Below are positions 9,322-38,613 of a stretch of DNA of 44,200 nt, piece by piece. The notes beneath the pieces were generated by a model that saw only the letters and a program-made list of their open reading frames with translations, had not been told where the DNA came from and ran no database searches. Numbering within the stretch: position 1 is the stretch's first letter; every line of letters begins with the position of its first letter. The DNA comes from an uncultured Gammaproteobacteria bacterium (GTDB lineage Bacteria; Pseudomonadota; Gammaproteobacteria; Steroidobacterales; Woeseiaceae), in assembly GCA_913063505.1 (NCBI GenBank), contig CAJXYT010000008.1, positions 1-44,200 on the forward strand, written 5' to 3'. The translations under genes and the position numbers were made by a program.

Positions 9322-10854
9322 CTAATTATTATCCGGCAATAGACGAATCATCGGATTACGAAGCATAACGCGGCTATCAGAGCCTATGGATTCAAAGCCA
9401 ATCGTGCCTCGGTGGAGACTGGCCGGTCCATCTGCATCTGCAGGTTCAGTGAATTCGTTGACTGTTTCACCATTCACTTTTACCGTGACTGTCTTGCCAT
9501 CAACCTTGATGTAGTAGCTGAACCATTCGTTATCAGCATGTGGAGCGGTCTTCACTTCACTCACACCAACCAAGCTACCGGTCTTACTCTCGCCTTTTCG
9601 GCTGGCATTAATCTGAGCTTCATAACCGTACGTAGGAGATCCATCTTCCTTATAACGGGTATGAAAATAGACCCCTGAAGCTGACCCAGGATAAGTGTAG
9701 ACATCAACTTTGAATTCAAAATTTTCAAACTGCCCACCTTCGATCACGCCATCGTAGAACAAATTTCTTTGGTCTCCCTGAACAATTAGCGTATCGGTAT
9801 AGAAAGATCCACCCATATGACTGAATGATTCGCCAGCGGTTGCATTATCGTTTTGTGGATAGGCTCCCTTTCCACCAGGTGCTCGCCGATACCAATTGCC
9901 AGACGTCCAATCCACAGCATCTCCACTCTCGATCCATCCGTTGAGCGTATCATCCAAGAGTGAGATCCATCCAAGTCCACGTTCTCCTTCATACCCCGGA
10001 GCTGAACCATCATCTTCAAGTTTTCCGGCCGCCCAAAGAACGCCCGATGCAATAAGATTCAAATTCACATCTGAACCCATCGCAGAATTATGATGTCCCA
10101 GTGAACTAGTAAAAACAGGAACCCCTTTGTATTCATGTGTCCACGCTGTTTCAGTATAGGAATCTATCTCCACTGAATAAGCGTGAGATAACGGAGTCGC
10201 GGCGTCATGTAGATCAATAATTAGATACAGCTCACCACCGGGTGTTCGCCAAGAACGAGGATAGTTCTTCATGATCTGGTGATTCGGCTCCAGAGCCTCG
10301 ATCGTGTAGGGAGAGGTATTAGGATGATCTTTTTTCTCATGGACGTATGAAACAGCTCCAATAAAATCCCACCATTCATCCGCTGCATCGCCCTCTGCAT
10401 ATTGATAAAGATGGATGGGGCAATGAAGAAAAACAGCAGGCACTTGATGCTTAACATGCTGATCAATGATTCCTTTTACATAACCTTCATCTTTTACTTG
10501 AAGGTTACAGTGATTGTAGATAACAACGTCGAACTCTGCCGCCCAATCATCCTCAGAATGACGGGAAAACTCGAAATCAGTTGATCCCATAGTAAGAGTA
10601 TCCGCACCTTCATAGTCAGTTGTTATCTCAATATTGGAAAGGCGCTCCAACAGCCCTTCTTTGATCTGGTCCTTCTGCGTTCCATAATCGTGCCAGGGAC
10701 CCCCACCAGTAATCATCAAGACGTTCAATGGATCCACATGATTATCATGCGCTCCGTGATGAGCTGCTCCAGCGTATTGAGATAAGCCGCTAGAAAAAAT
10801 TAGTATTGAAATAGGAAGGAGTATTTTTTTAAATATATTTACATTCTTATTCAT
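9322..10854 (-). CDS. Secreted ThuA-domain / DUF1080 (3-keto-disaccharide hydrolase) fusion, copy 1
   Basis: This 510-residue exported protein has a signal peptide (1-31, ending A-G-A-A) followed by a histidine-rich mature start. A ThuA-like class-I glutamine-amidotransferase-fold domain follows (about 42-270), beginning L-M-I-T-G-G-G-P and containing L-G-H-H-N-S-A-M-G. The C-terminal DUF1080 concanavalin-type domain (about 295-508) has F-E-F-K-V-D-V-Y-T, Y-F-H-T-R-Y and Y-G-Y-E-A-Q-I-N. DUF1080 members include enzymes acting on 3-keto glycosides, and ThuA domains are linked to disaccharide use. It lies downstream of the PQQ dehydrogenase, 120 bp apart, same strand. A clear paralogue lies inverted at 37066-38613. 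Exact substrate unknown. Confidence 0.85.
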   Translation of the reverse strand: MNKNVNIFKKILLPISILIFSSGLSQYAGAAHHGAHDNHVDPLNVLMITGGGPWHDYGTQKDQIKEGLLERLSNIEITTDYEGADTLTMGSTDFEFSRHSEDDWAAEFDVVIYNHCNLQVKDEGYVKGIIDQHVKHQVPAVFLHCPIHLYQYAEGDAADEWWDFIGAVSYVHEKKDHPNTSPYTIEALEPNHQIMKNYPRSWRTPGGELYLIIDLHDAATPLSHAYSVEIDSYTETAWTHEYKGVPVFTSSLGHHNSAMGSDVNLNLIASGVLWAAGKLEDDGSAPGYEGERGLGWISLLDDTLNGWIESGDAVDWTSGNWYRRAPGGKGAYPQNDNATAGESFSHMGGSFYTDTLIVQGDQRNLFYDGVIEGGQFENFEFKVDVYTYPGSASGVYFHTRYKEDGSPTYGYEAQINASRKGESKTGSLVGVSEVKTAPHADNEWFSYYIKVDGKTVTVKVNGETVNEFTEPADADGPASLHRGTIGFESIGSDSRVMLRNPMIRLLPDNN

Positions 10855-16391: not shown

Positions 16392-19300
16392 CTAGAAGGT
16401 GTACCTCGCACCAAGCATCAGACGCATATCGCCTTCCATGAAGGACTGTACTTGTCTTTCTGTCCGGCCGCGGAAGACGACTGGTGATTCAGTCATATTG
16501 ATGCCTTCCAGGGTGAGGGTCAGATTATCAGTGGCAGCATAGCTAGTCGTGAAGTCAAGCTGCGAGTAGGCATCAACAAACCGCGGAATCCGATCACCGA
16601 TGTTGGTGTTCGACAGGAACTCACCGCGCTGGTTGTAGAGTACTCGTGCACTAAACTTATCGTTCTCGTAGAAGAGAATGAGATTCGACGAATCTGACAA
16701 GCCGGTCTGAGCAAACTGATCAGCAGCACTTGGGTCAGCGTAAACGTCGTAGCCGATGTCACCGCTTACAAATGTCGCATTAGCCTGCATTCCGAAGCCG
16801 CTGAACGCACCAGTGAAGAAGTGCACCCAGTTCAACTCCCAACCTTCGATACCGGCAGTCGCCGCGTTCGTTGGCTGCTGAATGATAAAGTCCATCAATG
16901 GATCATTAGCATCCGGAGCGATGTCGTATGCGGTTGCGAGGTTAGATGACAGCAAAGCACCGCCTGTTTGACTAGGATCGATGTAATCCGCTGCGCCATT
17001 CGTGTACACAGAAGGATTATCAAGGATCGCGGTCATTGAGAACATATTCGTCTCAGTCACCAACCAGCCACCTGCAAGCAAGGCTGCAACAGCAGCACCA
17101 GATCGTGATCCGGCTACGCCAGTCGAAACATCGCGCAGACCAAACAGGTTGCCCTGTACTTGCTCGTTACCGATAAAGTTCGCTATTGACTTGTTGAAGT
17201 AAGCAACCGTAACTGCACTGCCGTCGCCGTAGTAGTACTCCATCGATAGATCGACGTTGTTGGACTTCAGCGGTAACAGTTGTGCATTACCCCGACTACC
17301 ACTAGCCTTGCCGCCCAGGTATGTAGCTGTGTCTGGACTACCAGCATTGGTCTTAAGGAACATACTGGTTAGACGTGGTCGCGCGATGGTTGTGCTGAAA
17401 GAGACTCGCGCTTTCAAGTTGTCGTTAACATCCATAGACACGTCGAGGCTTGGCAGGAAGTTGTTGTATTTGAAATCCTGCTCAACATTCGAGACAGACG
17501 AACCCAAAATGGTTTCGAAGTCGTTGTCCGATGCCCAAGGCTTAGATTGTGGAACACCCTGTACTGAAAGGGAGTTAACACTTGTGGACTCATGACGCAA
17601 TCCGACTACTACCTGTACCGGCATATCGCCAACTTCGCCGTCGGCGATGAACTCAGCAAAGACAGACATTGTGTCTTCGGTGATGGTGTTGTCGTCTATG
17701 CTGCCGTAGACACGATTGGATTCGTCAAATACCGAGCCGCCACCGGTGGTAAAGCCGTCAAAGGCTTTTGCCATCGCTATTGGATCGATAAAGAACGCTA
17801 CGTCACCGGTTCTGCGTGGTATGGAACCTGCTGCTACGTTTCCGCCGGCAGCGGTGTAATCAGCAATCACTGTTGCCAGTGGCAGAAGGCGATCATCATC
17901 ATCTCTAAACTCGCAAGTGATGCAGATTTCTTCGATAGCATCGTTGCCCATTAGAGCTGAGATATCACCAATGAAACCAGTGTTCCAGCCGCCGAGCGTG
18001 CCATATGAGCCTTTCCCGAATTGATTCATCTCGTAATCAACGTAGCCCATGCCAAAGTTAGCTCTGATTGGGCCGCCGTTATCAACTGCAAGCGAGAAAT
18101 TAGCCTGGTTGACGGTGCTTTTTTGATCACTAAAGGCACGAATCGCGTACTGAGAACCGAGATCTGACTTTTCGAAGACGCCGTTCGCGTTACCGCCAGC
18201 GAAGTTAACAACTGTACCGTTAACATTTGTGCTGGTGGCTGGTGAACCGTCTGCGATGGTCTGAACGGTGACAGGTATTTCCGAGCGATAATCGACGAAC
18301 TGAGCGCCAACAGCCTGACCACCGATGGAACTTCCTTCAGTGATGCTGCCCATTGGGAAGTTACCGCCAGCTTTCGCTACACCAGTGGAGATGTCTGCGG
18401 TGAATGTCATCGAATCATTGATCACATACTCAACGTTCGCGCCGAAGTTAGTCAGCGTATCTTTTATCGAGAAGAGGCTATTACGGAAAGGAAGCTCTTT
18501 ACCTGATTTGGTGAAGTCGCTACCGCCGCCAACTACGAGTGGCTCGCCGATAAAGTTCGGAAGGCTAACAGCCGGATCATCATCAAATTCGATGAAATCG
18601 AACGAACGTACAAAGTAAGGAAGATCCGAAACAGCCTTTGAAGCTTGCTCTGTTGTCGCGAACATGCCATCCAATGTAATGGTCAAGCGGTCGTTAGGTG
18701 CAAACTGTGCAGTCAACGCGGCGTTGGTGCGTTGGCGATTGTTCTCGCTGTACACAAGGGTCGAAGACCGTGGGAAACCAGTCAGTCGATCAGCCGGTGG
18801 AGGATTGACTATGGTTGCGCCCGCAAATGCTGGAGCAGTCGCATCGAACGGGTTCTGCCAAACAATATTGCCCGCTAGTGCCGTACGATTCGAGTATTCG
18901 CGATCCTGATAAGAACCGAAGGCTGAAACGCCAAAGGTACCTGCATCATTCACCCAGCTACCCAGACCACTTAGCTCAGGGGTCATGCCGCTAGCACCGC
19001 CGTCTTGTACAGCTTTGGCGCCAAACGTTAACGCATTACCTGTATCAAGAGGTCTGATGGTTTGGATATTGATCGTGCCGCCAATACCACCGGAAGGAAC
19101 GCCAGCTTTACCTGATTTGTAAACCTGCAAGCCCTGTACACCCTCAGACGCTAGATTCGAGAAGTCGAACGAGCGCGAATCGGCAGAGTTAGTGTTGGCG
19201 TTGATGCCGAAGAACCGAGCCCGAGCATCTGCACCAGGCATCATGCGGCCGTTCAAGGTCACTACGTTGAAGTTACCACTGAAGCCGCGAATCGTGGCTT

Positions 19301-19592
19301 CGGAACCTTCACCCTCGACGCGGTTAATGGATACACCAGTAATACGCTGAAGTGATTCTGCCAAGTTGGTATCAGGGAACTTACCGATATCCTCGTTGGA
19401 AATGGCGTCCATGACACCTGAAGACTCACGTTTAACATCAAGAGCCGCCTGCAAACTGCCGCGAATACCTGTGACTACAACTTCTTCAATGTCGGCATCC
19501 TGCGCAATCGCTGGGCTAGCAGCAACACACAAAACTGCTGATATTGCGGTAGCCAGTTTGGTTTTTCGCATAATTGTTTTGTCTCTACTCAT
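16392..19592 (-). CDS. TonB-dependent receptor, large sugar-type
   Basis: Outer-membrane active transporter energised by TonB-ExbBD. From the ATG at 19592, chosen because aacgagga lies 10 bp upstream and a signal peptide follows, it is 1066 residues. After the signal (ending A-I-A-Q) come a TonB-box-like E-E-V-V-V-T-G-I-R-G-S-L and the plug domain (about 40-160), with F-P-D-T-N-L-A-E-S-L-Q-R-I-T-G-V and I-R-G-F-S-G-N-F. The 22-strand barrel follows and ends G-A-R-Y-T-F with a terminal phenylalanine, as outer-membrane assembly requires. Length and plug resemble the receptors used for complex carbohydrates. It has a conserved structured leader shared with the FG-GAP gene upstream. Confidence 0.93.
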   Translation of the reverse strand: MSRDKTIMRKTKLATAISAVLCVAASPAIAQDADIEEVVVTGIRGSLQAALDVKRESSGVMDAISNEDIGKFPDTNLAESLQRITGVSINRVEGEGSEATIRGFSGNFNVVTLNGRMMPGADARARFFGINANTNSADSRSFDFSNLASEGVQGLQVYKSGKAGVPSGGIGGTINIQTIRPLDTGNALTFGAKAVQDGGASGMTPELSGLGSWVNDAGTFGVSAFGSYQDREYSNRTALAGNIVWQNPFDATAPAFAGATIVNPPPADRLTGFPRSSTLVYSENNRQRTNAALTAQFAPNDRLTITLDGMFATTEQASKAVSDLPYFVRSFDFIEFDDDPAVSLPNFIGEPLVVGGGSDFTKSGKELPFRNSLFSIKDTLTNFGANVEYVINDSMTFTADISTGVAKAGGNFPMGSITEGSSIGGQAVGAQFVDYRSEIPVTVQTIADGSPATSTNVNGTVVNFAGGNANGVFEKSDLGSQYAIRAFSDQKSTVNQANFSLAVDNGGPIRANFGMGYVDYEMNQFGKGSYGTLGGWNTGFIGDISALMGNDAIEEICITCEFRDDDDRLLPLATVIADYTAAGGNVAAGSIPRRTGDVAFFIDPIAMAKAFDGFTTGGGSVFDESNRVYGSIDDNTITEDTMSVFAEFIADGEVGDMPVQVVVGLRHESTSVNSLSVQGVPQSKPWASDNDFETILGSSVSNVEQDFKYNNFLPSLDVSMDVNDNLKARVSFSTTIARPRLTSMFLKTNAGSPDTATYLGGKASGSRGNAQLLPLKSNNVDLSMEYYYGDGSAVTVAYFNKSIANFIGNEQVQGNLFGLRDVSTGVAGSRSGAAVAALLAGGWLVTETNMFSMTAILDNPSVYTNGAADYIDPSQTGGALLSSNLATAYDIAPDANDPLMDFIIQQPTNAATAGIEGWELNWVHFFTGAFSGFGMQANATFVSGDIGYDVYADPSAADQFAQTGLSDSSNLILFYENDKFSARVLYNQRGEFLSNTNIGDRIPRFVDAYSQLDFTTSYAATDNLTLTLEGINMTESPVVFRGRTERQVQSFMEGDMRLMLGARYTF

Positions 19593-19619
19593 TTTCAATT
19601 TCCTCGTTAACTCGATCAT

Positions 19620-19744
19620 CCCGGTCATCCCGGCTTTAAACTTTAGTTTCACCAAGCGCGGCCTTAATGACCCCGCTTGCTGTCTGGTAACCGGAAGGAG
19701 TTTGTGCGCTTAGGCACACAGCTATCCCCCGGTCGCTGTATTAA
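19620..19744 (-). promoter_or_regulatory. Conserved structured 5' leader, copy A (TonB receptor gene)
   Basis: This block lies just upstream of the receptor's ribosome-binding site. It is about 80-85 percent identical by eye to the block before the FG-GAP gene at 21341-21466. On the minus strand it can form a nested hairpin: outer arms aagcg/cgctt, inner ggtc/ggcc, with an attaa loop. A second hairpin has arms tgtgc/gcaca. A TTAATA-like -10 element directly abuts its upstream end, so the block is probably the transcribed untranslated leader. No known riboswitch class was recognised. Confidence 0.65.
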
Positions 19745-19803
19745 ATGCTTGCTTCCATATCACCACGAAAGGCGTTGGATAGTGTGTGCATTTTTTTTCA
19801 AGC

Positions 19804-19835
19804 TATCACTATTGGACAAACAACGCCAGTTCTTT
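19804..19835 (-). promoter_or_regulatory. Conserved upstream element, copy A
   Basis: A 32-nt stretch matches 21489-21520 at about 26 positions by eye. It lies upstream of the shared leader, in the place of an activator or repressor site. Both copies contain a t-g-g-c ... c-c-a half-palindrome. It suggests shared transcriptional control of the receptor and FG-GAP genes. Confidence 0.45.
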
Positions 19836-19874
19836 CAAAGATTTTTTGAATCTGTTGTATTTTCGCGTCATGTT

Positions 19875-19901
19875 AACCCTCGTTTGCTATAAACAAGGGT
19901 T
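19875..19901 (-). terminator. 11-bp hairpin downstream of the FG-GAP gene
   Basis: On the minus strand aaccctt-gttt (19901-19891) pairs with aaac-gagggtt (19885-19875) over 11 bp, with one U-G wobble and a 5-nt loop. It starts 47 bp after the FG-GAP stop codon. No T-run follows, so it may be a processing or Rho-linked 3' end. It also lies upstream of the receptor promoter and could act as an operator. Confidence 0.45.
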
Positions 19902-19947
19902 ATCACGATGCGAAAACACAACTATCCCGACTGGCGCTAGCGCGCCC

Positions 19948-21327
19948 TTACTTCTTATACTTCTTGCTGCGGACAGGCTGAGCCTTTTTCCATTCCTTCC
20001 GACTGACGCTTCGAACCTTTTGGGTAAAGGCAAAGGCCCCGTTTTTATTGCCGACCACAAAATCGGGCAGCCCATCTCCATTAAGGTCTCCGCTGACCAA
20101 TTGCCGTCCAATGCCTGCCTGGTCGTCAATTAGATGAGGAACGAATTCTACCTGGCCGTCATCCTGGCGCGTGAGCCGGAAATAATAGATCACTGGGTCT
20201 TGTCGAGATCCTTCGTCGCCGAAGTCATGAGCTCGATAGGTCTTGCCGGTCAAAATGTCTTTCAGGCCATCGCCATCGATATCGACAAGCTCTACTGCGT
20301 GCAGCTGGGAGAATTGAACCCCATAAGGGTTGTCGGTATTTTCTTCCTGCTTACTCATAATGATGTGTTCTTTAAAGGTGATCATCTCTCCATCGTCACC
20401 GTATTGACGGACCTGCTCATACCAGCTCAGGCCCCAACCGTGAGCGTCTTGACTAGTGATAACGTCATTTAGACCGTCGCCATTCACGTCATAGGCATAC
20501 ATATTGCCTCCCCCGGTTAAACAGCAGAATACGGGGTTGCTCGCACGATTAAGGAATTCATAAGGATGAAACTCCCAATCTTCACCGTCTTGCAGGGAGG
20601 CCGGTTGTCGCGCCCAGCCTTCTCCAGTTAGATAGTCGGTGCGTCCGTCACCGTCAATATCCCCAATTCCCATGCCGTGGGTGTAGTGATGAATGACTTC
20701 ATCGAAGGTTGCTATCGGATGAAAGATCCAAGGAAGCCTCGGAGATACTGGGTTTGGTGATACATAGCCATAATGTTCGTCATAGGCCATTAACAGCTCA
20801 GGTACTCCATCGCCAGTAAGGTCTTTAAAATCAGGCGCTTCGTTTTTAACAGCATTTGTAACAAAGTGCTTTTCCCAGTGGACTGGGTTCTTAGGACCCT
20901 TACCGCCAAAAGGCTTTCCTGGGTTTTCATACCAGTAGGCCTCAGTATTAGGTAGCCCCACTGTCATGATATCAGGCCAGCCGTCCCCACTGATGTCGTA
21001 GACATATGAAAAGAAATTGTCGTTAGCGTAATACGAAAAGTCATTTGGGCTGCGCCTGGTTGGCGCCACCGCTGGATAATATTCGTGACGAAAACCAGTT
21101 CTTCGATCGAAGTTAGGCCCTAAGTATAAGTTTGGCCCACTGACAATATCCATATGACCATCTTGATTGAAGTCACCCATCGAGGCGCCTTCAGACCAAT
21201 AGATAGGGCTTAATTCCCATTTTTGAAATTCACGAACAACAAGTTCGCTGTGGTGGTCAGCCTGAGCCGTGACCGTTAAGCATAAGCAGGTGAATATCAA
21301 TGCTGTGACGCGCTGAATGCTGTTCAT
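19948..21327 (-). CDS. Secreted FG-GAP / VCBS-repeat protein
   Basis: Exported beta-propeller protein of 459 residues with a signal peptide (about 1-23, ending A-Q-A-D). Seven calcium-binding repeats of the D-x-D/N-x-D-G-x-x-D type are visible, for example D-F-N-Q-D-G-H-M-D, D-I-D-G-D-G-R-T-D and D-L-N-G-D-G-L-P-D, spread along the chain. Such integrin-like propellers bind ligands or surfaces; no catalytic motif is seen. A Lys/Arg-rich tail ends the protein. The ribosome-binding site is aaggtaatt. It shares a duplicated leader with the TonB receptor downstream, which suggests joint function, perhaps as a surface or periplasmic substrate-binding partner. Confidence 0.87.
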   Translation of the reverse strand: MNSIQRVTALIFTCLCLTVTAQADHHSELVVREFQKWELSPIYWSEGASMGDFNQDGHMDIVSGPNLYLGPNFDRRTGFRHEYYPAVAPTRRSPNDFSYYANDNFFSYVYDISGDGWPDIMTVGLPNTEAYWYENPGKPFGGKGPKNPVHWEKHFVTNAVKNEAPDFKDLTGDGVPELLMAYDEHYGYVSPNPVSPRLPWIFHPIATFDEVIHHYTHGMGIGDIDGDGRTDYLTGEGWARQPASLQDGEDWEFHPYEFLNRASNPVFCCLTGGGNMYAYDVNGDGLNDVITSQDAHGWGLSWYEQVRQYGDDGEMITFKEHIIMSKQEENTDNPYGVQFSQLHAVELVDIDGDGLKDILTGKTYRAHDFGDEGSRQDPVIYYFRLTRQDDGQVEFVPHLIDDQAGIGRQLVSGDLNGDGLPDFVVGNKNGAFAFTQKVRSVSRKEWKKAQPVRSKKYKK

Positions 21328-21340
21328 TTAATTACCTTAT

Positions 21341-21466
21341 CCCGGTTATCCCGGCTTTGTACTTTGGTTTCATCAAGCGTGGTCTAATGACCCCCCCGCT
21401 TGCCGTCTGGTTGCCGGAAAGAGTTTGTACCCTTAGGTATACAGCTATCCCCCCGGTCGCTATTTT
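21341..21466 (-). promoter_or_regulatory. Conserved structured 5' leader, copy B (FG-GAP gene)
   Basis: Second copy of the leader described at 19620-19744, in the same orientation and at the same distance from its start codon. The nested hairpin is kept: outer arms aagcg/cgctt are identical, and inner ggtc/gacc replaces the G-U pair of copy A with A-U. In the other hairpin one G-C pair has become A-U, while another is disrupted to A-C. A ttaaaat element abuts the upstream end and could be the -10 box. Confidence 0.65.
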
Positions 21467-21488
21467 AAGTTTTTCTTTGGGCACTTTT

Positions 21489-21520
21489 TATCATTATTGG
21501 CCGAAAAACGCCACCTCTTT
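21489..21520 (-). promoter_or_regulatory. Conserved upstream element, copy B
   Basis: Counterpart of 19804-19835, about 26 of 32 positions alike. It is only about 23 bp from its leader, compared with about 60 bp in copy A, so the spacing to the promoter is not conserved. The rest of the 21467-21725 gap holds nothing I recognise except the direct repeat at its right end. Confidence 0.4.
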
Positions 21521-21698
21521 TCATCGGCCCAGAGGGCGCGTATTAAGGCTCTCTGCAGGATGTCATCAACATCCGGCGGGCAGGCAGTAGCAGTGTCAGA
21601 GAGGATTTTTGAGGATGAGTATTATAAGGGGTAGGGTATCGGGGCAGCGGTAGGACACATAACCCTTCATCTCCTGTGGAATGTGATCAGCGGCCAAA

Positions 21699-21720
21699 TG
21701 GGAAGGGGTGCTTATCCTTC
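21699..21720 (+). repeat. Imperfect direct repeat bounding the catabolic cluster, left copy
   Basis: The 22-nt stretch starting tgggaagg and ending ggtgcttatccttc matches 35311-35333 apart from two substitutions and one inserted base. The identical core is 14 nt. It lies five bases beyond the HAD gene stop codon; the other copy is just beyond the last gene of the cluster. It may be a recombination or transposition scar, or a dispersed short repeat. Confidence 0.45.
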
Positions 21721-21725
21721 TGATT

Positions 21726-22532
21726 CTAGAGTGCCTTCGACGTACTGAAGGCATCCACAGGAATACATTCAAGGCTTTCAATATCAAAATCCGGTGAGAT
21801 CGAGAGTGGATCCTTTTCAATAACACCCGTGCGAACTCGTATGGTTGGAAGTCCAGCTGCATGACCGGCTGCGATGTCAGTCATGATCTGATCCCCAAGC
21901 ATGAACGTTGATTGCCGATCTGTCCCAAGTATTGATAATGCTATGGTGACAAGATCAGGTTTAGGCTTGCCGATGATGATGGGCGTGACGCCAGAAGCTG
22001 TTTCAATGGCCTGCAGGATTGAGCCGGCACCTGGCTCGAATCCGCCGCCCTTGGGCAGCATAGTGTCCGGATTGGTTCCAATGAAATGCGCGCCTCCCAG
22101 CAGAGCTGTTTGGGCTCTTGCCAATTTTTCGTATGTAAAGCTGCGGTCCAGGCCTGCGATAACCGCATCAACATCTTCATCAGCAATCTCGAAATCGCGG
22201 TCCACCACCGCGCGCACCAATGCTTGCGCACCAATGACCATAACGCGGGATCTGGGCTCCAGTAAATCACTAAGCCGGTCAGCGGCGACTGCGCTAGTAG
22301 TGATGATACGCGCAGGATCGGCAGGTATGCCCATTGCGTTCAGCTTAACGCTGAATTCTTCAGCCGATTTCGTCGAATTGTTCGTGACAAATGCGTACGG
22401 GAGTCCGATATCATTCCAGCGTTGAAACACTCTAACGGCGGATTCGATCGGCTCATCGCCGCGATAGGTGACACCATCCAAGTCACTGATAATAGCGGAT
22501 ATTTTAGGCCAGTGTGTCAACAGGTCACTCAA
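21726..22532 (-). CDS. HAD-superfamily phosphatase, NagD-like (subclass IIA)
   Basis: Sugar-phosphate or p-nitrophenyl-phosphate type phosphatase of 268 residues. Motif I is D17-L-D19-G-V-T-Y-R-G with the nucleophile and acid/base aspartates. Motif II is F-V-T-N-N-S-T-K-S near 48-56. The IIA cap domain follows (about 80-180), then K-P-K-P-D-L and the metal-binding L-G-D-Q-I-M-T-D-I-A motif near 217. The start is TTG, overlapping the SDR stop (TTGA), so the genes are translationally coupled. It is the last gene of the minus-strand catabolic operon and probably removes phosphate from a pathway intermediate or a dead-end product. Confidence 0.88.
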   Translation of the reverse strand: MSDLLTHWPKISAIISDLDGVTYRGDEPIESAVRVFQRWNDIGLPYAFVTNNSTKSAEEFSVKLNAMGIPADPARIITTSAVAADRLSDLLEPRSRVMVIGAQALVRAVVDRDFEIADEDVDAVIAGLDRSFTYEKLARAQTALLGGAHFIGTNPDTMLPKGGGFEPGAGSILQAIETASGVTPIIIGKPKPDLVTIALSILGTDRQSTFMLGDQIMTDIAAGHAAGLPTIRVRTGVIEKDPLSISPDFDIESLECIPVDAFSTSKAL

Positions 22533-37065: not shown

Positions 37066-38613
37066 ATGAATAAGAATTCAAAAATATTTAAAAAAATATT
37101 TCTTTCTATTTCAATATTAATTTTTTCTAGCAGCCTATCTCAATATGCTGGAGCGGCTCATCATGGAGCACATGGCCATAATGCAGAACCATTGAGGGTT
37201 TTGATGATTACCGGCGGTGGCCCTTATCACGATTACTACACCCAATTAAGACAGCTCACAGAGGGCTTGACTGATCGCATCGGTAATATTGAGTTCACCA
37301 TCGATCATGACGAGGGTGCAAATAAACAGGATATGTATTTCAAATTTGAGAGCCTGCAAACAGATGAATGGACACAAAATTTTGATTTAGTTTTATACAA
37401 CAGTTGTAACCTTCATGTGGCAGAAGGTAATCCTGAGTATGTAGATAAAATTATTCAAGCTCATGTTAAAAGTCAAATACCTGCAGTAATGACACATTGC
37501 CCAATGCACTTACATCGAACAAATGCTCCAAATTGGTACAACTTTACTGGAGCTGAGTCTTATGTGCATGAAGTTGTTAATACTCCTTTTACGATAGAGT
37601 TACTTGAGCCTAATAATCCCATTATGGTCAATTTCCCTGATACTTGGCGGACTCCGAATGGGGAGCTCTATATGCCTGTTGAGTTAAAAGATAATGCTAC
37701 TCCACTGGCGCGTGCTTATGGCGCAGAACCCGCTGAATTTTTTCCTATAGCTTGGACTCATGAATATGAAGGGGTTCGAGTATTCAGTAGCACTTTGGGC
37801 CACCACAATGTGACTATGGGTTCCGATGTAAATCTAAATCTAGTAGCAGCTGGATTGCTGTGGGCAGCTGGCAAGCTTAGTGATGATGGCTCTCCATCTA
37901 AAGGGTATTCAGGTGAGAGAGGATTGGGATGGATCTCCTTGCTTAAAGGGGGAACCCTACATGGTTGGCGCGCTACCCAGACAACTGATTGGTCTTCATT
38001 TAGTTGGTGGGATGGAAAAGATATTTGGCCCTCAAAAGAAAATATGGGTACTGATTCTTTTAAACTTGTTGCTGGTAAAGCTGAACATTTGTTGCGTATG
38101 CCAAAGCATGACGCTCCTGACCCTGATGTGTATTTAAATACTATTCTTGCTGAGGGGCCACAAAGTAACTTATTTTATGTAGGGCCGATTGATGGCGGTG
38201 ATTTTAAAAATTTCGAATTCAAAGTTGATGTATACACCTCTCCCGGTTCAGCTTCAGGAATCTATTTTCATACCCGTTATAAAAATGATGGACGTCCTGT
38301 TTATGGTTATGAGGCTCAAATTAATGCTAGTCGGCGTGGTGAGAGCAAGACCGGTAGCTTGGTTGGGGTAAGCGAAGTGAAGACCACCTCACATACAGAT
38401 AACGAATGGTTTAGTTATTACATAAAGGTTGATGGCAAGAAAGTAACAATAAAAGTAAATGGCGAAACAGTTAATGAGTTTACTGAACCAGATAATGCAG
38501 AAGGACCGGCCAGTCTCCGCCGGGGGACAATTGCTATGGAATCTATAAGTTCAAAAAATAGTCGCGTTCAGTTTCGTAATCCGATGATTCGTCCATTACC
38601 AGATAATAATTAA
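37066..38613 (+). CDS. Secreted ThuA-domain / DUF1080 fusion, copy 2
   Basis: This 515-residue protein has the same layout as the copy at 9322-10854: signal peptide (1-31), ThuA-like domain (about 42-270) and DUF1080 domain (about 300-513). The first 45 and last 145 residues are very similar between copies (about 80 percent in the tail by eye), while the middle differs more. That middle region includes the likely substrate-facing loops. AT-rich compared with the metallo-hydrolase gene that follows. ttaggagatc ribosome-binding site. Probably acts on a periplasmic glycoside; function inferred from family only. Confidence 0.87.
   Translation: MNKNSKIFKKIFLSISILIFSSSLSQYAGAAHHGAHGHNAEPLRVLMITGGGPYHDYYTQLRQLTEGLTDRIGNIEFTIDHDEGANKQDMYFKFESLQTDEWTQNFDLVLYNSCNLHVAEGNPEYVDKIIQAHVKSQIPAVMTHCPMHLHRTNAPNWYNFTGAESYVHEVVNTPFTIELLEPNNPIMVNFPDTWRTPNGELYMPVELKDNATPLARAYGAEPAEFFPIAWTHEYEGVRVFSSTLGHHNVTMGSDVNLNLVAAGLLWAAGKLSDDGSPSKGYSGERGLGWISLLKGGTLHGWRATQTTDWSSFSWWDGKDIWPSKENMGTDSFKLVAGKAEHLLRMPKHDAPDPDVYLNTILAEGPQSNLFYVGPIDGGDFKNFEFKVDVYTSPGSASGIYFHTRYKNDGRPVYGYEAQINASRRGESKTGSLVGVSEVKTTSHTDNEWFSYYIKVDGKKVTIKVNGETVNEFTEPDNAEGPASLRRGTIAMESISSKNSRVQFRNPMIRPLPDNN

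Follow-up and report, generated by a model that had tools for sequence, protein, structure and literature searches.

A duplicated, probably structured 5' leader and a private promoter-like element before a TonB-dependent receptor gene and an FG-GAP repeat gene of a Woeseiaceae bacterium

Three kinds of described system come closest to the one considered here. The cobalamin riboswitch upstream of the TonB-dependent receptor gene btuB is a structured 5' untranslated region (UTR) acting at translation initiation (see PMC11162775). In loci for carbohydrate utilization with TonB-dependent receptors (CUT loci), such as that of SuxR in Xanthomonas, a carbohydrate TonB receptor and its partners are under a LacI/GalR repressor, as the excerpt of PMC1790865 describes. 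In Bacteroides, according to the available part of PMC11697453, the small RNAs (sRNAs) FopS and GibS, together with RbpB, control the susC mRNAs of glycan-uptake TonB receptors post-transcriptionally at the translation initiation region. The element presented here is a leader shared by a TonB-dependent receptor gene and the neighbouring gene for a secreted FG-GAP repeat protein in an uncultured gammaproteobacterium of the family Woeseiaceae. Both genes lie in a window of 44,200 nucleotides (nt), the whole stretch of DNA that was analysed (contig CAJXYT010000008.1 of assembly GCA_913063505.1, here contig C8 of genome G000; 1.45 Mb, 90% complete).

Like the btuB riboswitch, this leader would be a structured 5' UTR acting at translation initiation, but it falls below every Rfam threshold and was found in one family only. 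Rfam 15 gave no match at the gathering score in the whole window. A permissive scan of positions 19400-21800 gave two matches (E 0.14 and 4.1), both outside the leaders, and the TonB regions of the relatives G050 and G007 gave one each (E 3.6 and 3.3). Since no family reaches its threshold or a meaningful E-value, the leader is not a cobalamin riboswitch by this test, and the suggestion of an earlier note, made from the DNA letters alone, that the element is undescribed stands as far as Rfam goes. In the open-access literature on TonB-receptor leaders, on TonB and FG-GAP genes of Woeseiaceae and on LacI, xylose and FG-GAP genes, the element is undescribed in the titles and abstract beginnings of the matches listed, and the terms UTR, riboswitch, LacI and FG-GAP are absent from the main text of a Woeseiaceae comparison (PMC12175321). 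The Bacteroides system is similar in its level of control, but it belongs to a different phylum and uses trans-acting sRNAs, and the part of its source available describes no conserved three-hairpin leader; no sRNA search was made here.

When positions 19580-19800 were searched against the window's own genome, exactly two places were returned, the query itself and 21339-21468 (E 4.7e-31), so the duplication is not due to chance. The two copies, both with the minus strand as sense strand, share 83% identity over 130 nt (79%, 87% and 89% in the ungapped blocks), and no third copy was found in the genome. This bears out the earlier description of a leader of about 125 nt, 80-85% alike, before two non-homologous genes: the receptor matches PF00593 and PF07715 as well as TIGR01782 (556 bits), and it has no family in common with the FG-GAP protein. 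A further shared element upstream, also seen in that note, is 25 bp long and lies about 58 nt above the TonB leader and 21 nt above the FG-GAP leader. Its pattern, TGGCGTTNTTYGGCCAATARTGATA with up to 3 mismatches, finds these two places only in the genome, while the reversed control finds none. The proposal is that each block is a module of promoter and 5' UTR, the two being paralogous, and that through them the receptor and the FG-GAP protein are co-expressed. Their lineage would have no detectable LacI and a rewired promoter, and the structured 5' UTR in front of the two genes would probably act in translation. The probability of this reading is put at roughly 0.45.

FG-GAP orthologs were found in 9 of 73 genomes of the genus (E ≤ 1e-20) and 15 of 296 sampled genomes of the order (E ≤ 1e-100), and receptor orthologs in 7 of the 73 (E ≤ 1e-250). 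A search across the taxonomic class (369 sampled genomes, E ≤ 1e-100) returned the FG-GAP gene of the window's own genome only. Leaders were sorted by their 5' part and promoter into three classes. Class II comprises the leaders of both window genes, of the FG-GAP and TonB genes of G050, of the G010 FG-GAP gene and of the G007 TonB gene, with ACAGCGACCGGGGGATAGCTG at the 5' end (diverged in the G050 FG-GAP leader). Class I comprises those of the FG-GAP genes of G037, G006, G001, G282, G185, G196 and G300, with AAACAGYCTTTGCGGTGATGCTG at the 5' end, and is homologous to class II from GCTGAAGGG onward. In class III (FG-GAP genes of G014, G048, G006 contig 99, G284 and G040), only about 45-50 nt adjoining the start codon are kept, as judged by eye. 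The classes were named after the sequences and several folds had been viewed and before the consensus-fold tests; the shuffle counts given below are therefore descriptive.

A covariance model (R1) built from 12 leaders was searched against 107 genomes of the family at E ≤ 0.1 and matched 14. The strong loci (E ≤ 1.8e-18) number 13 and come from 11 genomes, each preceding an FG-GAP or TonB ortholog; a search of this kind had been suggested in the earlier note. Twelve of these are members of the model and the thirteenth is the FG-GAP leader of G300. Among three weak matches (E 0.004-0.05), the one in G040 is at the class III leader of an FG-GAP gene, and those in G011 (E 0.006) and G216 (E 0.05) were rejected by eye as lying by or in unrelated coding sequence. 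In the 296 sampled order genomes, 11 matched at E ≤ 0.05, all from the window's family (f1). Six loci with short matches (20-36 nt) from another search were also examined. Leader identity exceeds that of fourfold-degenerate sites in all 11 gene pairs compared, which are not independent, for example 0.80 against 0.61 for the window and G050 FG-GAP genes and 0.87 against 0.84 for G185 and G196; since gaps were skipped, this comparison flatters the leader.

In the relatives with class I leaders, the two genes would be linked through a private promoter of another design, which includes a LacI-type operator. Eight genomes were searched for this class I element (pattern TTTGCAG-N8-SAAG-N-T-D-V-GRTANAGT, at most 2 mismatches). 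Exactly two matches were found in five (G037, G001, G006, G196 and G282), one before the FG-GAP gene and the other before a gene whose product, by eye, begins like a TonB receptor; G185 and G300 have one match, G104 has none, and the reversed control gave none in all eight. Directly below the element lies the palindrome TGAAATCGTTTTCA or a close variant, which, by the LacI consensus, is presumably a LacI-type operator. The earlier idea of a common operator for a surface-uptake pair is thus supported, in the form of a private shared element in the window and of a LacI-type design in five of the eight relatives searched. At the class I TonB genes, promoter and operator are present and no match to the leader was found; from the beginning of the promoter element down to the gene start the distance is about 100-125 nt in four genomes and about 350 nt in G196. 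Promoter and leader are therefore separable. Between FG-GAP and TonB genes of class I, promoter segments are 0.80-0.85 alike, upstream segments 0.68-0.80 and leader-position segments 0.66-0.73, with 0.73 (standard deviation 0.04) in the shuffled control. Only the promoter segment is therefore claimed as shared, and its identity is not independent evidence because it was found by pattern.

The LacI family (PF00356) was found in all nine class I and III genomes tested (G037, G001, G006, G185, G196 and G282; G014, G048 and G040), in eight of them on the contig of the FG-GAP gene, within about 1 kb of it in seven and at about 9 kb in G037. None of the four class II genomes, G000, G010, G050 and G007 (90, 89, 88 and 64% complete), has a match, and no LacI-controlled locus of CUT type was thus found in the window's lineage. 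As the four genomes are related, this absence counts as one or a few events and not as four. The gene order is xylA, xylB, galM, LacI and FG-GAP in G196, and two FG-GAP genes, LacI, galM, xylB and xylA in G001. In G050, xylB, xylA, galM and FG-GAP are still neighbours and the LacI gene between galM and FG-GAP is missing. The gene names in G196 and G050, and that of the G001 LacI gene, come from NCBIfam and Pfam, the others from inspection by eye; an Alteromonadaceae metagenome-assembled genome (L048) has a similar neighbourhood, again by eye. The class I genomes, with LacI beside xylose genes, resemble CUT loci, but the co-regulated partner is an FG-GAP protein and the pair shares a private promoter, while the class II genomes differ further in having no detectable LacI and a structured leader.

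Some related arrangements were also seen. The class III FG-GAP upstream regions (L028, L032, L034 and L056) have a window-like TGGC... element with a different LacI-type palindrome below it (GGTAGCGCTAACAT or a near variant), and in G014 and on G006 contig 99 a LacI gene is nearby on the contig. Tandem FG-GAP pairs stand beside LacI in several relatives (L031/L035, L029/L037, L054/L061, L030/L036 and L048), the second copy retaining just the final leader bases before the start codon.

In the window's lineage, both genes would be under another promoter. The class II element has the form TGGCGTT-N-TTYGGCCAATARTGATA, and its position points to a promoter, as do the hexamers TTGGCG and GATAAA/GATAAT, which in G050 are separated by 16 nt. 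Transcription would then start above the leader.

Class II leaders are judged likely to be structured RNAs. RNAalifold on the five distinct class II sequences gave a consensus energy of -22.7 against -6.9 in column shuffles, which preserve conservation (z -6.1 with simple and -5.3 with ribosum scoring, 0/200 shuffles each; 0/300 in the first run). The antisense fold, used as strand control, was weaker (z -2.8, 3/200, and -3.7, 0/200), and omission of G007 left z at -5.7 and -5.8. The consensus has three hairpins, P1 with inner stem P1b, A with A2, and C, and 29 pairs, seven of which show two-sided changes; several of these also have broken cells, so the covariation term is +0.28 without bonus. 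The seven class I leaders, though homologous, gave no consensus structure (z +0.2 and -0.7) and are probably unstructured or differently folded. A consensus structure with compensatory changes, stronger on the sense strand, was thus found in class II and not in class I, with mixed results on pooled alignments. The consensus fold of all 12 leaders gave z -4.2 in both scorings (1/200 and 0/200). One class I leader (G196, L057 2849-2891, minus strand) has a sub-threshold Guanidine-II match on the sense strand (12.6 bits against 32, E 3.3), which was not seen in the class II leaders scanned.

The details that the earlier note had read in the window pair are present: hairpin A has identical outer arms (CAAGCG/CGCUUG) in both copies with a G-U to A-U change in the inner stem (GGUC/GGCC and GGUC/GACC), and a further stem has UGUGUGC/GCGCACA in one copy and UGUAUACC/GGGUACA in the other. 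Its step from these substitutions to RNA structure does not hold for the window pair alone, for which sense (z -3.5 and -3.2) and antisense (z -3.7 and -3.0) are at the same level, so that RNA and DNA are not separated; with the class II homologues it is supported. Of the structure and covariation in homologues on which that note made its reading depend, the class II consensus fold supports the structure, with the low covariation term given above, and class I gave no consensus structure. Hairpin A is the minimum free energy (MFE) fold in 10 of 14 leaders folded singly, with z from about 0 to -2 in several. Folded alone, the 5' domain of each of the five distinct class II copies forms the same elbowed P1/P1b, a shape that the class I leaders do not adopt. 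Whole 5' UTRs, compared with mononucleotide shuffles, gave z of -2.9, -3.8 and -3.4 for the TonB leaders and -2.5 for the G050 FG-GAP leader.

The class II 5' UTR of both genes would therefore, on the consensus fold, be a three-hairpin RNA ending directly above the ribosome-binding site, and it would most likely act at translation initiation. The P1 strand UCUUUCC could pair with GGGGGAU upstream of it, so that the ribosome site stays accessible, or with the purine-rich site itself further downstream, which would close it, and a metabolite, a protein or a small RNA would decide between the two. In the whole-UTR MFE fold of G007, the pyrimidine strand is paired with the ribosome site around hairpin A. 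Translational control is favoured because the leader lies between promoter element and ribosome site, the hairpins end at that site, UCUUUCC has two possible partners, and no terminator-like site, as an attenuator with an intrinsic terminator would have, was found on the minus strand in 19560-19960 or 21300-21740. Xylose-type sugars would be a first guess for the effector, given the LacI neighbourhood in the relatives. Since the private promoters point to co-regulation in transcription as well, the leader need not be the main control. A bolder version, in which the class II leader is an undescribed regulatory RNA that has replaced the lost LacI-family repressor, senses a sugar-related signal and gates translation while a new shared promoter re-ties both genes, is considered improbable.

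Several results weigh against the proposed modules. The ribosome site is mostly open (0.61 in the window's TonB leader, 0.95 in that of G050) and no conserved OFF state was seen. A simple sigma-70 consensus scan did not list the class II element and found no canonical promoter at either leader. The element pattern is present at both genes in the window genome only: in G050 it matches the FG-GAP copy, the TonB copy being similar by eye with more than 3 mismatches, while G010 and G007 each yielded just one gene of the pair. The class II set consists of five related sequences, four of them from two genomes, and class I has no consensus structure. The absence of LacI and the leader class may coincide by descent or assembly gaps, the genomes being related and 64-90% complete.

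Single folds and covariation add to these doubts. The window's FG-GAP leader alone is not clearly more stable than its shuffles (z -1.1, 29/200), the whole 5' UTRs of the window and G010 FG-GAP genes are close to theirs (z -0.6 and -0.8), P1 is in the whole-5'-UTR MFE fold of only two of the five distinct class II copies (the window and G050 TonB leaders), and hairpin A is not the MFE fold in four of 14 leaders. In a 12-row MAFFT alignment, paired cells in hairpin A amount to 84.2% against 83.0% in shuffles (141/500), although pairs with two-sided changes number 3 against 0.9 (18/500). A tree-based null gave p 0.0005-0.0015 for hairpin A with all 14 rows, among them L048, which was aligned by hand with its fold already known and improves the test; without L048 and G010, p is 0.053-0.070, and it is 0.026-0.097 for class II and 0.11-0.36 for class I alone. 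Two further candidates failed: a P-long helix (UUUCGGC/GCCGGGA; p 0.58 for two-sided changes, 0.04 for paired share) and a GCAC/GUGC pseudoknot (p 0.11 for two-sided changes, not significant). A hairpin GCUGAAGGG/CUUUUCGGC was also rejected (p 1.0 and 0.22 for two-sided changes in its two parts, with paired share at p 0.02 in one part).

The alternative that fares best, a possibility taken seriously and rated below the proposed modules, is that the block works mainly as DNA, a shared promoter and operator bound by a transcription factor, with the hairpins as inverted repeats of binding sites and co-regulation in transcription only. Private promoter elements occur in two designs, LacI-type operators with a LacI gene nearby belong to one of them, and most copies of the class II element contain an inverted repeat, TGGC-N8-GCCA, between the presumed -35 and -10; the class II antisense fold also beats its shuffles. 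However, the leader sits between promoter element and start codon, the class II consensus fold favours the sense strand and contains stems with G-U pairs (GGUC/GGUC, GGUC/GGCC) that do not form palindromes in DNA, and the stretch between the outer arms of hairpin A varies from 14 to 17 nt. The class I TonB genes, moreover, show promoter and operator and gave no leader match.

It is rather unlikely that the leader, instead of being a self-contained switch, serves as a platform on which a small RNA acting in trans, or an RNA-binding protein of the kind of CsrA, finds its target. CsrA sites are typically GGA motifs in hairpin loops over the ribosome site. GGA motifs recur beside the ribosome site here, CsrA is encoded in four of six genomes tested (G010, G050, G037 and G185), and what the FG-GAP leader classes have all kept is roughly the last 45 nt upstream of the FG-GAP start codon. 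However, CsrA was not found in G000 or G007, both incomplete, and the GGA count near the ribosome site varies (by eye). Small RNAs of Bacteroides repress susC mRNAs at the translation initiation region, as the available part of PMC11697453 reports, which would fit such a platform.

Still less credit is given to a local duplication of an intergenic stretch that functions only as a promoter carrier, its structure incidental to G+C-rich sequence. This would suit the class I leaders, which have no consensus structure and whose FG-GAP 5' UTRs fold like mononucleotide shuffles (z +0.5 to -1.9). A 7-nt insertion is present in both window leaders and G010, whereas class I, G007 and the two leaders of G050 lack it; this suggests copying between the two genes within the lineage. 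Gene conversion may be read from 81% identity between the paralogous leaders against 69% between TonB orthologs, but the FastTree topology clusters leaders by gene and pulls the opposite way from the insertion; the tree does not decide. Against mere duplication stand the conservation above fourfold sites in 11 of 11 pairs, the class II structure that no column shuffle equalled (0/200), and the presence of the leader before both G050 genes, which are 37 kb apart.

A conserved small upstream open reading frame (ORF) acting by attenuation is very unlikely. It is rejected because in G037, G001, G006a and G282a the class I frame is shifted or interrupted by 1-nt indels, and the open frames that exist (34-38 codons in G185, G196 and G037, 31 in the G050 TonB leader, 16 in that of the window) are not homologous between genes. 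Upstream AUG frames start directly below the promoter element in the window (about 19745-19792, minus strand, 16 codons) and before the G050 TonB gene (31 codons); by eye they are not homologous to each other.

FG-GAP proteins of this kind are poorly characterised. If the proposed modules are real, the coupling of one receptor with one FG-GAP protein, maintained in two promoter designs, would be a lead on the role of the latter. In these uncultured, small-genome bacteria they would also provide an example, open to experiment, of genes that are preceded by a structured leader where the protein repressor is missing. The positions of the features are collected in Table 1.

Table 1. Positions in the window of the two genes, their leaders and associated elements.
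Feature	Position	Strand	Basis
TonB-dependent receptor gene (TIGR01782)	16392..19592	-	start 19592 predicted from alignment with G050 and G007
Likely Shine-Dalgarno GAGGAA, TonB receptor gene	19600..19605	-	predicted from sequence
Class II leader, TonB receptor gene	19618..19745	-	own-genome match, homologue alignments, covariance search, consensus fold
Hairpin C (CCGG-GAUGA-CCGG), TonB copy	19621..19633	-	consensus fold
Hairpin A, TonB copy (nested stems of 6 bp and 4 bp)	19653..19679	-	single folds, alignments, consensus fold
Hairpin P1/P1b, TonB copy (P1b as inner stem, one-sided internal loop)	19689..19734	-	5' domain alone, z -3.7
7-nt insertion lengthening P1b, TonB leader	19712..19718	-	alignments
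Promoter-like element, TonB receptor gene (TGGCGTT...CCAATAGTGATA)	19804..19828	-	pattern; putative -35 CTGGCG, N16, -10 GATAGC
FG-GAP repeat protein gene, 459 aa	19948..21327	-	PF13517, PF01839
Class II leader, FG-GAP gene	21339..21467	-	own-genome match, homologue alignments, covariance search, consensus fold
Hairpin C (CCGG-GAUAA-CCGG), FG-GAP copy	21342..21354	-	consensus fold
Hairpin A, FG-GAP copy (GGUC/GACC inner stem, longer internal loop)	21374..21402	-	single fold, z -1.4
Hairpin P1/P1b, FG-GAP copy	21414..21456	-	5' domain alone, z -2.1; not in whole-5'-UTR MFE
Promoter-like element, FG-GAP gene	21489..21513	-	pattern search

Between the FG-GAP stop and the TonB promoter, at 19852-19926, lies a long imperfect inverted repeat (AACCCTTGTTTATAGCAAACGAGGGTT, flanks TTTTCGC.../...GCGAAAA), which attracts a chance Rfam microRNA match and is possibly the 3' end of the FG-GAP transcript. 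A search of plasmid DNA gave no matches. Elsewhere in the window, two genes with ThuA and 3-keto-disaccharide hydrolase domains (9322-10854 and 37066-38613) stand at opposite ends of one neighbourhood, and positions 724-1587 encode a protein of 287 aa in which five stretches match Kazal-type inhibitors, here in a bacterial genome.

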